A stretch of 64,000 bases of DNA from Bergeyella cardium (GTDB taxonomy: Bacteria > Bacteroidota > Bacteroidia > Flavobacteriales > Weeksellaceae): positions 1,382,001-1,446,000 of the forward strand of contig NZ_QYCZ01000001.1 in the NCBI RefSeq assembly GCF_003614945.1. The letters run 5' to 3'. Under the pieces are notes generated by a model. The model was given only the letters and a program-made list of their open reading frames with translations, made no database searches and was not told the origin of the DNA. The position numbers were made by a program, and so were the translations under genes. Positions 45,345 through 49,140 of this stretch are shown one piece after another. Position 1 is the stretch's first letter. Each line of letters starts with the position of its first letter.

Positions 45345-45490
45345 CCGTAGCACGGCAGGCACCCACTGTGTGGGGCACACTTATCACAAACTATCCGCAC
45401 ACCGCCTACTGCCTAAAGCCTACTGCTTACTGCACGAAGCTAACCGCGCACCGCCAATAGCTAAAAGCCAATAGCTATTTGCCATCTGCT
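45345..45490. repeat. Dispersed intergenic repeat, copy 3 (left edge of island)
   Basis: The segment contains GCACGGCAGGCACCCA, then TATCACAAACTATCCGCAC, ACCGCCTACTGCC and GCTAAAAGCCAATAGC. Its reverse complement matches 63645-63775, where GCGGTGTGTGG, TAGTTTGTGATAATCGCC and the TGGCTATTAGC phrase occur in the matching order. It also matches 49045-49140 in inverted orientation (ACCGCCTAnnGCC...ACTGC..GAAGC.AACC). Confidence 0.7.
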
Positions 45491-45498
45491 AAAAAGAA

Positions 45499-45526
45499 GT
45501 ACGGCACCCCAAATGGGGTGCCGTAC
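45499..45526 (-). terminator. Strong hairpin, probable terminator on the minus strand
   Basis: A perfect 12-bp stem GTACGGCACCCC-aaat-GGGGTGCCGTAC. On the minus strand it is followed by ttctttttagc, so it may stop transcripts arriving from the 45912-46628 gene. Confidence 0.6.
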
Positions 45527-45697
45527 AAATAAATACTAACAATTATAAAAACGCATTATGCACACAAGTGATAAAGTGCAAGGTTTCTATTTTCTTTCTT
45601 ATCAGCTAATGGCTTTAAAATTCATCGCTGAGTTTATTATTCATTCTTAAAGCTTATTTATTGTTTAGGTTTAATGGGATATCTTGGCTAATTTCTA

Positions 45698-45840
45698 TCG
45701 CCTGAGTAGGCGAGACACTATCGCCCGAGAGAGCGAGTCACCTTCGCCCGAGAGAGCGAGTCACCTTCGCCCGAGAGAGCGAGTCACCTTCGCCCGAGAG
45801 AGCGAGACACTATCGCCCGAGAGAGCGAGTCACCTTCGCT
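45698..45840. repeat. 23-bp tandem repeat, six copies plus a part
   Basis: Units start at 45698, 45721, 45744, 45767, 45790 and 45813, with a partial one at 45836. The usual unit is TCGCCCGAGAGAGCGA plus a 7-bp linker GTCACCT or GACACTA. The first unit has a perfect 6-bp stem, TCGCCT-GAGT-AGGCGA; later units keep only TCGC/GCGA. It is GC-rich in an AT-rich intergenic setting. No gene is seen between 45345 and 45911. Confidence 0.9.
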
Positions 45841-45911: not shown

Positions 45912-46628
45912 TCAGGCAATAACTACGGGTGTATTAAGCACCTCAGTTCTTGGGGTTTTTAGAAAGACTTTCGAGGTATTGCTAAACTGCGTTGTGATGC
46001 TCAGTTCATAATTGCCGGCAGGGAGCGAGGCGGGGATAAGCACCAAGAGACGAGAAGGTTCATTGAGGGCAAGGTCTTCAAGCTTGGTCTTGGCTTTGGT
46101 GTCTATATTGGTGAGGTAGATGCCATTATCTGTGTGAGTACCTGCAACCTTGAGGTAAGTTCCCTTAATCTCTGCATTCTTGCCTTTGGTAAGGGTGCCA
46201 TCGGTTTTGCCTGTGCTGAGGTCGGTAATACCGAAGATTGCCATTGGGCTGGATTGCTCTCCAAGAAACTCTACCTTGGTTTGGGAGATGGCTTTTCTTA
46301 GCTCGGCACCTTGATTGACATTTACATAGACGCTGTGCTTGTCCTTATCCCAAGTCCTATCGCGGAAGGCTCCCTTGATGGCTGAGCGCATTATCACGAG
46401 ACCTGTATTCACTACATAGCCTTGGAGCACCAGCTCTGTGCTCTTGCGATTGAAGCGGGAAACGATGTCTATTGCCGTCTCCTCTTTTATCTCCATACCT
46501 TCTTTTTTGAGCTCTGCTACAATCTCTGCTATGCTTACACTCCCTACGCTTGCGGGTACGCCTACAAAATCTGATGGGTCGCTGGTAAGAGGGTTGTCTC
46601 TTAGCCACGCTTTTAAAGTATTTTTCAT
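45912..46628 (-). CDS. HU-like DNA-binding domain protein with DUF4469 domain
   Basis: A 238-residue protein. The N-terminal part (MKNTLKAWLRDNPLTSDPSDF..., about 1-125) matches the HU/IHF-like fold of the Bacteroidota family typified by Bvu_2165, with RSAIKGAFRDRTWDKDKHSV in its beta-arm region. The C-terminal part, with KGKNAEIKGTYLKVAGTHTDNGIYL and LVLIPASLPAGNYELSITTQFS, is the immunoglobulin-like DUF4469 domain. The cellular function is not established; DNA binding is inferred from the fold. It lies downstream of the FISUMP surface protein gene (79 bp) on the same strand within the probable island. Confidence 0.82.
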   Translation of the reverse strand: MKNTLKAWLRDNPLTSDPSDFVGVPASVGSVSIAEIVAELKKEGMEIKEETAIDIVSRFNRKSTELVLQGYVVNTGLVIMRSAIKGAFRDRTWDKDKHSVYVNVNQGAELRKAISQTKVEFLGEQSSPMAIFGITDLSTGKTDGTLTKGKNAEIKGTYLKVAGTHTDNGIYLTNIDTKAKTKLEDLALNEPSRLLVLIPASLPAGNYELSITTQFSNTSKVFLKTPRTEVLNTPVVIA

Positions 46629-46706: not shown

Positions 46707-48608
46707 TTAGTCCTGTACACAACGAACATTATTACCTTCATTTCTAAGTACATTAGCACTAATTAAAATATTATCACTAGATGATAATACACTCAATGCC
46801 TGTGGAATTTTAAATGTTGGATTAGTATACTCATCTGACCTTAAAACAATTACATCAGCCTTAGTTCCTGATGAAGTACTTAGCCAGAAACCACCTATAT
46901 TATAATTTATCTGATAACTACGAACAACTCCACCATGGGCTTGACTATACCATCCTGATCCTAAGCGCTTTAACTCTAATAAAAAGTTACCCTGTTGTAT
47001 CCATCCCCCTGTTGTAGTTCCATGTAAATTTAACAGCAATTGTTCCATCTCTGTTCTTGTAGGGGTATGCCATCCACTTGGACAGGGTTCCGTATAGCTG
47101 GTCACTTTGGTAGGATACTCAGAAGGGGTATATCGCTTCCATGCATCTGTAATTGTCCCTGTAGGGAATTGAGACTGGTATATATATTTGAATGAAGCAC
47201 CTCCTGCTCCATTATTGGGCTCTGTAGTCTTCCAGTCGACTAGCTCATGTCCATCTGCTTCTCTTCCCCATTGGAATAGTGAACCCAGTCCTCTATAGTC
47301 CCCACCATCACTTGGGCTACGCTTGTCATAAGTTTGATCATTTCCAAATACTCCAAATCTCGTGGCATCTGCATAGTACGCTCCTAGGTTTTTGTCTAGC
47401 CATATCTGCTGGTCATAGGTCATCACCTTGCTATAAACAAAGCGGTGGTCATATCTATTCACCCCAGGCGTTTTGAAGTTATACTGTTTGTCCTTCACTC
47501 CTCCTGTTGCGATTACTTTTAAGTTAAATGGAGCAGTTGCACTCGTTAGCTGTACAGGAATAGTAGCTATCTCCTCATCTGCACTACCTGCCTCCAATAG
47601 CGGCGCTAAATACGGTGTTGGTTCTAAGACTTCCAGTGTCCCTGTAATGACATTATAGAGGTTCGGGTTGGTGTTCTGGTGCAACTTTCCGCCTGGTATC
47701 GTTAGTTTCAATGTTCTCTGATTAGAACCCGTGCCTATCGTTACCGTCTTGTTGAACTCCCCAAACTCCTTACCATCTCCGTTTCTATATGGGATTTTCA
47801 CAGGGATTTTGTAGGTGCTGTTGTCAATCTTTCCTTGGTAGCTTTGGTTGGCTGGTCTAGGGCCTTGTACAGAGCTGTCCTCCTTCCATGAGAAGACAAA
47901 CACGCTATAATCTTGGAACTCTGCATATCCTACACCTATGCTATAGTTTTGCTCCACAGCATAGATACCTACTTCCAGCCTTGCCTTGATATTGCCAGGC
48001 TGTGGTTTTCCTTTGAGGGTGTAAGTCACCACCTGAGATGCCCCAGGAGCTACGGTTACACTGCTATTTTGGGAGCCATCTACATCTACTGTCCCTGTGG
48101 GTCCTGGCGTTCCACTTGGGCCTGGTGCTGGTGTGTTGGTAATCGTAAGGGCAGAAGACAGGTCACCCGTCCATGCCGTTGCTCCATTATTGATGATAAG
48201 GAACTTCACTTTATGAGTACCAGAACCCGCAGGAATATCCACTCCTTGTTGGAAAACTCCTTCCCAACCTGCTCCCATCACCTGCATACTTACTCCTAAT
48301 GGTGTAGAAGACCCCTTGCTTACACAGTTCCAATCATTTTGAGTAAAGATTTCCAAACACCTTTTCGTCAGGTTAAATATCATTGTCCCTTCGGCTACAT
48401 CCGTTTTGGTAAATTTATCCCTCTGCTCAGTCGTTAACTGAGGAAATAGCACTCCCTGCACTGAGGTCTCGGGTAATCCCGTGTGCCTTGCTATTTCCAA
48501 AGATGCCTTTGGCGTCTCTGTATTGATTCCGACTCTGCCGTCGTACTCTGTCTGTGCGCTGGCTAATACTCCTATTAGCACAAACGCTAAAATCATTTTA
48601 AATCTCAT
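46707..48608 (-). CDS. Secreted FISUMP-domain surface protein
   Basis: A 633-residue exported protein. The start at 48608 gives a signal peptide MRFKMILAFVLIGVLASAQ; the frame is open further upstream, but only through hairpin-rich non-coding DNA. After the signal comes the GRVGINTETPKASLEI motif common at the start of Bacteroidota surface proteins, a DUF-like beta-rich middle, and a C-terminal Fibrobacter succinogenes paralogous (FISUMP) domain: WLDKNLGAYYADATRFG, SLFQWGREADGHE, CPSGWHTPTRTEMEQLL, NNVRCVQD. FISUMP proteins resemble lectin-like or formylglycine-fold surface adhesins; the ligand is unknown. The reading frame is intact. Confidence 0.85.
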   Translation of the reverse strand: MRFKMILAFVLIGVLASAQTEYDGRVGINTETPKASLEIARHTGLPETSVQGVLFPQLTTEQRDKFTKTDVAEGTMIFNLTKRCLEIFTQNDWNCVSKGSSTPLGVSMQVMGAGWEGVFQQGVDIPAGSGTHKVKFLIINNGATAWTGDLSSALTITNTPAPGPSGTPGPTGTVDVDGSQNSSVTVAPGASQVVTYTLKGKPQPGNIKARLEVGIYAVEQNYSIGVGYAEFQDYSVFVFSWKEDSSVQGPRPANQSYQGKIDNSTYKIPVKIPYRNGDGKEFGEFNKTVTIGTGSNQRTLKLTIPGGKLHQNTNPNLYNVITGTLEVLEPTPYLAPLLEAGSADEEIATIPVQLTSATAPFNLKVIATGGVKDKQYNFKTPGVNRYDHRFVYSKVMTYDQQIWLDKNLGAYYADATRFGVFGNDQTYDKRSPSDGGDYRGLGSLFQWGREADGHELVDWKTTEPNNGAGGASFKYIYQSQFPTGTITDAWKRYTPSEYPTKVTSYTEPCPSGWHTPTRTEMEQLLLNLHGTTTGGWIQQGNFLLELKRLGSGWYSQAHGGVVRSYQINYNIGGFWLSTSSGTKADVIVLRSDEYTNPTFKIPQALSVLSSSDNILISANVLRNEGNNVRCVQD

Positions 48609-48668
48609 ATATCTATTATTTATGTTACTTCCTTGGGAATAATTATTGAGCGTAGAAACTGCGATTGA

Positions 48669-48691
48669 GTCGCCAGCCAAAGGCTGGCGAC
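48669..48691. repeat. Perfect 10-bp hairpin GTCGCCAGCC/GGCTGGCGAC
   Basis: GTCGCCAGCC-aaa-GGCTGGCGAC lies 61 bp upstream of the FISUMP gene start. It would form in the 5' leader of that transcript if the promoter lies further upstream. Confidence 0.75.
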
Positions 48692-48834
48692 AATGTGCCT
48701 CCCTTCTCTCCTCTCTTGTCTGATTTTGTTCTAAAAGAAGATTGACTAGCGCTTTGTCGCTCGCTTCGCTCGCGACTTTGTGGGGATTATAGCCTCCTGC
48801 ATAAGCGAAAAAGTGAGAAGCAGGCAAGCGCAAA

Positions 48835-48879
48835 AGCGCCGATAGGCGCGCGGGCAGAGCCCGCGCGCCTATCGGCGCT
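48835..48879. repeat. Perfect 21-bp GC-rich inverted repeat with 3-nt loop
   Basis: The arms 48835-48855 and 48859-48879 are exact reverse complements (AGCGCCGATAGGCGCGCGGGC and its complement), with loop AGA. Such a long, GC-rich cruciform is striking in this AT-rich spacer. It could terminate murF transcripts or be a recombination or protein-binding site. Confidence 0.9.
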
Positions 48880-48881
48880 CT

Positions 48882-48907
48882 ATATAGTCTTTTAAATAAG
48901 ACTATAT
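48882..48907. repeat. 10-bp AT-rich inverted repeat next to the 21-bp hairpin
   Basis: ATATAGTCTT-ttaaat-AAGACTATAT begins 3 bp after the large inverted repeat and is followed by a GAAG tandem (gaaggaaggaaggaagg). No gene is seen in 48609-49149. Confidence 0.7.
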
Positions 48908-49044
48908 TTTGAAGGAAGGAAGGAAGGATAACAAATTATCGCACATACGCAAGTTTGCACATGTGATATTTGTCATGTTTTGTGTATTCCTTTTCATCCT
49001 TTTTTCATCTAATTGCGAGGCAAATATAAAACTTATTTTTTATC

Positions 49045-49140
49045 TGGCAACAATTAGCGGTTAGCTTTTGGCTTTTAGCTGCTAGCTGGGGGTGGTTTGC
49101 TTCTCGCAGTAGGCTATAGGCGGTGGGTGGCTATTAGCTA
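49045..49140. repeat. Dispersed intergenic repeat, copy 4 (right edge of island)
   Basis: Contains TTAGCGGTTAGCTTTTGGC, then GCTTCTCGCAGTAGGC, TATAGGCGGTGGGTGGC and TATTAGC. It is inverted relative to the copy at 45345-45490 and in the same orientation as the copy near 63650 (which shares GCTTCTCGCA). Confidence 0.65.

Follow-up and report, generated by a model that had tools for sequence, protein, structure and literature searches.

A perfect GC-rich hairpin in the common leader of mosaic surface-gene units of Bergeyella cardium, a candidate leader RNA element

In a 64,000-nt stretch of the Bergeyella cardium genome (here the window), a 21-bp inverted repeat, named P3, stands ahead of a surface-type protein gene, and related copies of it stand ahead of further surface-type genes in the same genome. 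Comparison of these copies suggests that P3 is most likely a structural element, of the attenuator or processing type, in a long 5′ leader RNA shared by surface-gene units, a reading to which we give about an even chance. The units themselves are mosaics of one another, and the loops of three of their hairpins occur in exactly inverted form in different copies.

The P3 hairpin and the unit that carries it

The two arms of P3 (48835-48855 and 48859-48879) are 21 nt each, 100% complementary, with G or C at 17 of 21 positions, and they enclose a loop of 3 nt. First-order Markov shuffles of the window, 30 in all, gave perfect hairpins with arms of at most 12 bp (loops of 0-8 nt), and the window's own runner-up after P3 has 13-bp arms. 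With three mismatches permitted, the arm matches two sites in the window, both of them P3's own, where 100 shuffles give an expectation of none. As RNA, each of the two strands has a predicted minimum free energy of -48.7 kcal/mol (z -8.4 and -9.9), and the value for DNA is -33.4; the stem is GC-rich, as in an intrinsic terminator. Arm complementarity and shuffles together place the repeat far beyond chance, and its arms and loop are those given in the original prediction; the other elements that it listed, namely a second hairpin (48882-48907), the GTCGCCAGCC/GGCTGGCGAC hairpin (48669-48691) and a GAAG repeat, are all present.

P3 had been described as one site, which is exact in every detail of the hairpin but not in its number. 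A search of the whole genome (1.96 Mb, 3 contigs) with the 21-bp arm, which had been proposed as a check, returned eight sites, seven exact and one with one mismatch, that form four hairpins, and the search with the leader returned three further copies, 92-94% identical to the window leader, plus a diverged fifth with 68% identity over about 200 nt. We call these copies W (the window), A (C1:396 kb), B (483 kb), D (1819 kb) and C (1182 kb, the diverged one). W, A, B and D are copies of one unit of ~3.6 kb, made of a promoter, a leader, a FISUMP-like surface gene, a HU/DUF4469 gene and a terminator. Copy C is partial, with a different and shorter surface-type gene (336 aa), a broken HU gene and the second half of the leader missing; the leader measures ~290 nt there and ~400 nt elsewhere. 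All five leader copies precede a surface-type gene. Perfect hairpins with arms of at least 17 bp were confined to the P3 leader and its copies in a scan of the window and five 8-kb loci (104.5 kb, in which the W locus duplicates part of the window). The window unit has the following parts, in the order of its transcription.

49021-49050, minus strand: putative promoter, TTG-N19-TATATTTG, recognised by its sequence and fitting the -7 consensus TAnnTTTG
48902-48997, minus strand: possible short leader ORF of 31 codons plus stop, which ends in the AT hairpin
48911-48927, minus strand: CTTC tetranucleotide repeat (the GAAG microsatellite), of equal length in four copies and missing from copy C
48882-48907, minus strand: AT-rich hairpin P2, 10-bp arms and a loop of 6, identical in four copies
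48835-48879, minus strand: GC-rich hairpin P3, 21 bp, with TTTT after it on the sense strand
48756-48776, minus strand: palindromic stretch GTCGCGAGCGAAGCGAGCGAC, with 0 of 21 columns varying in four copies; absent from copy C
48669-48691, minus strand: hairpin GTCGCCAGCC/GGCTGGCGAC, 10-bp arms and a 3-nt loop, its arms unchanged among W, A, B and D
46707-48608, minus strand: surface-type protein gene, 633 aa, with a signal peptide judged by eye and a weak FISUMP/Fib_succ_major match
45912-46628, minus strand: HU-DNA_bdg/DUF4469 protein gene, 238 aa, above the Pfam cut-off
45499-45526, minus strand: unit-closing terminator, a 12-bp stem then TTCTTTTTAG, called by the terminator scan and found in all five copies

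TAnnTTTG is given as the -7 consensus of Bacteroidota in a source cited in part of PMC7366714. The spacing of the putative promoter is identical in the five copies, and copy C carries one mismatch in the -7 element (CATCTTTG). P3 starts 137 nt past the predicted transcription start in W, A, B and D and 129 nt past it in C; in W, the end of P3 lies 226 nt from the predicted start codon of the surface gene (48608). The FISUMP-domain matches of the surface gene fall below curated cut-offs, and the HU/DUF4469 gene is present in all four full units. In copy C, a different AT-rich stem is predicted where P2 stands in the others.

Several observations were made around the units. Units W and A carry the repeat AGCTAAAAGCCAANAGC as an inverted pair at their two ends (in W, 49061-49090 and 45440-45480), and copies B, C and D have it at their downstream end; it is interspersed, with 28 genome sites at no more than one mismatch against 0 for a control pattern. 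Downstream of the HU gene, 45684-45840 holds a short direct-repeat array of GCCCGAGAGAGCGAGTCACCTTC-like elements of about 23 nt, and the alignment shows related arrays downstream of A and D, the one in A differing in length. The copy C locus (C1:1178500-1186500, minus strand) carries two adjacent perfect hairpins, with arms of 22 and 21 bp, and its 336-aa surface-type protein has weak matches, far below cut-off, to trimeric autotransporter models. The loci C1:1749500 and C1:361800 are 99.4% identical over 2.1 kb and carry another gene with a similar N-terminus.

Mosaic units and the variation of arms, loops and pairs

Identity along the units is uneven. Compared with W in 100-column steps over about 3.6 kb, identity stays mostly at 90-100% in the leader and at the HU/terminator end, while in the surface gene it drops to 38-89%, with the exception of a W/A stretch at 97-100% and a B/D stretch at 99-100%, near 48490-48195. 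Among W, A, B and D (C left out), 1127 of 3423 ungapped columns vary, and the two-against-two sites (WA|BD 351, WB|AD 31, WD|AB 31) form 57 runs, compared with a mean of 111 and a minimum of 96 in 2000 shuffles. The longest tracts with full agreement at variable ungapped columns reach 688 nt for W/A, 532 nt for W/D and 453 nt for B/D, and for all six pairs the longest tract exceeds that of every one of 2000 shuffles. Since long tracts are common to different partners, the copies appear to have exchanged DNA. Read from the alignment, the mosaics show past exchange between units, or a history mimicking exchange; ongoing switching would go beyond what such tracts tell. Mosaic copies with conserved flanks, as known from antigenic variation, are thus found here, and an arrangement of one expression site with silent cassettes is not, promoter-like sequence being present in all copies.

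Within the leaders of W, A, B and D, variable columns make up 1 of 82 in hairpin arms, 29 of 281 in linkers and 6 of 12 in loops. Arms are less variable than linkers (p 0.005) and loops more variable (p 0.001), p values to be read with the reservation that variable columns are not independent because the copies recombine. The contrast of arms with linkers comes from the downstream linkers (23/170, p 0.001); against the upstream linkers alone (6/109) it is not significant (p 0.24), which we count against a role of P3 as leader RNA. The loop of P2 shows no variation across the four copies.

The P3 stem is kept in all five copies, in the diverged copy C through compensated changes: four of 23 pairs are changed there on both sides, a figure reached in 0 of 500 shuffles, and further pair types are not above shuffles (94/500). 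Pairing is lost at one position in copy A and at the outermost position in copy C. All compensated changes fall in one sequence, copy C, and this too counts against the leader RNA reading. Moreover, compensated changes can arise from template switching alone, as described in part of PMC8794818, and because template switching makes such signatures, they cannot by themselves prove selection on RNA.

On the sense strand, the P3 loops read TCT (W), GAA (A), TTT (B), AGA (D) and AAA (C), so that W/D and B/C are exact inversions. The loops of hairpin 48669-48691 read TTT in W and D and AAA in A and B, and those of the terminator ACTC in A and B, GAGT in C and ATTT in W and D. Exact loop inversion with unchanged arms is therefore present at all three hairpins, and spacer inversion with arm homogenisation is a signature of template switching in the parts of PMC8604942 and PMC8794818 drawn on here. 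When the P3 loop letters were shuffled, two or more inversions appeared in 4.5% of trials (P3 alone, p 0.045). P3 by itself is modest evidence for a presumed loop inversion, and the three hairpins taken jointly are more persuasive.

Possible roles of the hairpin

In the leader RNA reading, P3 would act in the transcript as a partial stop of the attenuator type, or as a stable or processed barrier, and would thereby set the share of transcript that reaches the surface gene. Template switching on the DNA hairpin during replication would partly maintain its perfect pairing and its changing loop, and recombination between copies would keep the leaders alike. The position of P3 between promoter-like sequence and gene at all five loci, which is where an attenuator would be expected, counts in favor of this reading, as do the second 21-bp hairpin directly after P3 in copy C and, in the relative G028, a stretch near-identical to the unit promoter that precedes a tRNA-Asn gene. 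The scarcely varying arms and palindrome and the compensated pairs of copy C are counted on its side as well. A run of T follows P3 on the sense side in all five copies (TTTT in W, A, B and D; T6 in C). Under a simple terminator rule that asks for a U-rich tail directly after the stem (at least 5 of 8), P3 of W is not called on either strand and P3 of copy C is called on the sense strand. The leader as a whole folds better than its shuffles (z -8.7 in W and -14.8 in C). On the other side, no alternative antiterminator fold was seen in the predicted leader folds, the hairpins being adjacent and not competing, P3 of W is not called a terminator, and the window as a whole gave no Rfam family at gathering thresholds.

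Other candidates in the leader were tried and not adopted. A long stem close to the 5′ end is predicted in both W and C, but its register differs between them, and this putative P1 stem is not counted as covariation. A coding extension of the surface gene (48609-48935, minus strand) has an open frame of 105-109 codons in four copies, with an in-frame 12-nt indel; it was ruled out by variable sites that spread 8/12/10 over the codon positions and by the missing frame in copy C. The short leader ORF keeps its frame in all five copies (27 codons in copy C), and the substitution evidence for it is weak: of its differences from copy C, third positions take 10 of 21 in A, B and D and 11 of 20 in W, which leaves a conserved leader peptide weakly supported. 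When 148 family genomes were searched for it, 42 of the 147 others had a match at E <= 1, a yield that chance explains.

That P3 is an ordinary intrinsic terminator of the preceding gene, which in the window is murF, is very improbable in our view. murF is co-directional with the surface gene, the strong stem is followed by TTTT, and copy C passes the terminator rule. Against this, promoter-like sequence lies between murF and P3, the nearest long upstream ORF points away from the unit in three of the five copies (A, C and D), and the rule does not call P3 in the window. The original prediction of an extreme terminator guarding the surface gene against read-through from murF thus finds no support; we rejected it because the promoter (49050-49021) lies upstream of P3 and because the upstream neighbours differ among the five loci. 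The idea of a transposition relic is not supported either. The unit carries its two genes only and matched no plasmid record, no mobile-element ends or target duplications were evident when the flanks were read by eye, and gene-independent movement with defined ends, as in MITE or REP elements, was not found.

Two rivals concern the DNA itself. The palindrome could be a recombination element that extrudes or is cut and in this way starts or ends gene conversion between units, as has been proposed for inverted repeats beside the Borrelia vmp and vls genes; we regard this as less likely than the RNA role but as a serious rival, second in our ranking. The units are mosaics, and for some pairs identity changes abruptly at P3: between promoter and P3, A and D are identical at 171 of 171 positions, and beyond P3 they differ at 10 of the first 46 (p 8e-8), W and D differ at 4 of 171 before and 12 of 58 after (p 2e-5), and B and D at 9 of 171 before and 10 of 46 after (p 0.0015). 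In addition, switching in B. hermsii depends on an inverted repeat within the downstream homology sequence, according to part of PMC6011951. However, all of these steps involve copy D, so one event or a local mutation cluster may explain them; A and B show no step (9/171, then 0/46, p 0.21), other tracts end elsewhere (for B/D, at 48645 and 48193), and the whole palindrome is just 45 bp. The earlier, looser suggestion of a cruciform site for recombination fares better, given that other copies exist, that loops are inverted between copies and that the units are recombinant mosaics. Alternatively, P3 could be a functionless relic, a palindrome whose perfection template switching preserves and restores and which was passed on whenever a unit was copied. 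This we hold to be improbable, less so than the plain terminator. The exact loop inversions at P3 (W/D, B/C), at 48669-48691 (W and D versus A and B) and at the terminator (A and B versus C) fit it, as does the range of products that part of PMC8604942 reports for template switching, spacer inversion and arm homogenisation among them. Yet the P3 inversions are weak when taken by themselves, and P3 persists in copy C despite the loss of other leader parts, with a T run on its sense side. An RNA role therefore ranks first, ahead of a recombination element, a relic and, last, a plain terminator.

A more speculative proposal, for which we claim little, is that the leader palindrome may have a double role, metering each unit as RNA and serving as a preferred junction of DNA exchange, with the inverted loops as its record. 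Equally doubtful is the extension of this proposal, that the units could be a surface-antigen diversification family in Weeksellaceae in which complete promoter-bearing units swap segments.

Relatives and known systems

None of 319 other family genomes, among which is no sister species of the same genus, matched the leader at E <= 1e-6, and four of 58 other relatives had short leader matches (27-52 nt, E 4.5e-5 to 8.9e-4). Of the three such matches that touch the promoter end and were read, two precede genes, one for tRNA-Asn and one a putative rpmE. A covariance model of the leader found all five own copies; of 315 other genomes, 8 had a hit at E <= 0.1, which is below the chance expectation. 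The best hits, G336 (8.3e-5) and its congener G338 (0.026), have a CTTC repeat and a terminator in common with the leader, and G012 (0.065) a short motif and a poly-C run; none is claimed as a relative. A motif scan of 316 genomes, which also missed copy B, added three single hits versus one for a control pattern, and these are not claimed as relatives either. The G336 and G338 loci consist of promoter-like sequence, a CTTC repeat that differs in length and then a strong terminator, with no ORF of at least 60 aa between promoter and terminator, possibly a small RNA with a variable repeat.

Relatives of the surface gene occur in five of 59 other family genomes sampled, and Riemerella anatipestifer, R. 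columbina and Weeksellaceae bacterium TAE3-ERU29 are among 49 loci with such relatives from various bacteria. G330 and R. anatipestifer have several paralogous surface genes with common upstream blocks of tens to hundreds of bases that contain smaller hairpins; for G330, seven upstream regions from ten loci were aligned. Hairpin-bearing common upstream regions, with differing sequences, may thus be widespread in these surface-gene families. Some G330 upstream hairpins, such as TTGAAAGC-NNNN-GCTTTCAA, have constant arms and differing loops, and at one locus (L066) a similar set of hairpins stands in inverted orientation on the downstream side of the gene. Relatives of the HU gene occur in four of 58 other genomes, in G033 with one downstream of a surface gene.

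If the leader RNA reading is true, the four complete recombined units, in a relative of Riemerella, would offer a compact system for the origin of variable Bacteroidota surface proteins. Their arms, loops and linkers can be compared between paralogues, so that selection on RNA structure may be weighed against palindrome repair by template switching. A misreading is also corrected, in that a long GC hairpin before a gene need not terminate the preceding one. In the literature on Riemerella and Bergeyella surface variation, FISUMP-type paralogues, gene conversion, vls repeats, template switching, leaders and promoters, we recognised no description of the surface-gene unit family, which does not imply that it is unpublished.

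As portrayed in excerpts of the cited accounts, four known systems resemble the units in part. The vmp genes of Borrelia hermsii (PMC6011951) are variable surface genes with conserved flanks, an inverted repeat and exchange between copies; they have one expression site and silent copies, whereas B. cardium has four full units, each with its own putative promoter, and their 31-bp repeat lies downstream of the gene, whereas P3 lies in the leader, in units whose mosaics point to past exchange. In vls of Borrelia burgdorferi (PMC11499132), inverted repeats also stand beside a variable surface gene with segmental mosaics, but the silent cassettes form a contiguous array, unlike the dispersed complete units of B. 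cardium. The template-switch studies (PMC8604942, PMC8794818) describe perfect arms, exactly inverted loops between related copies and compensated changes, as seen at P3; they compare strains or reconstructed histories, whereas P3 is compared between paralogues of one genome, which give no direction of change. Finally, the long 5′ leaders with short ORFs that are set beside attenuation leaders in Bacteroides thetaiotaomicron (PMC7366714) resemble the P3 leader, which is long too, has a possible short ORF and carries a stable hairpin and T run ahead of the gene; the P3 leader differs from them in being a sequence-level candidate, with no regulator, ligand or alternative fold seen.
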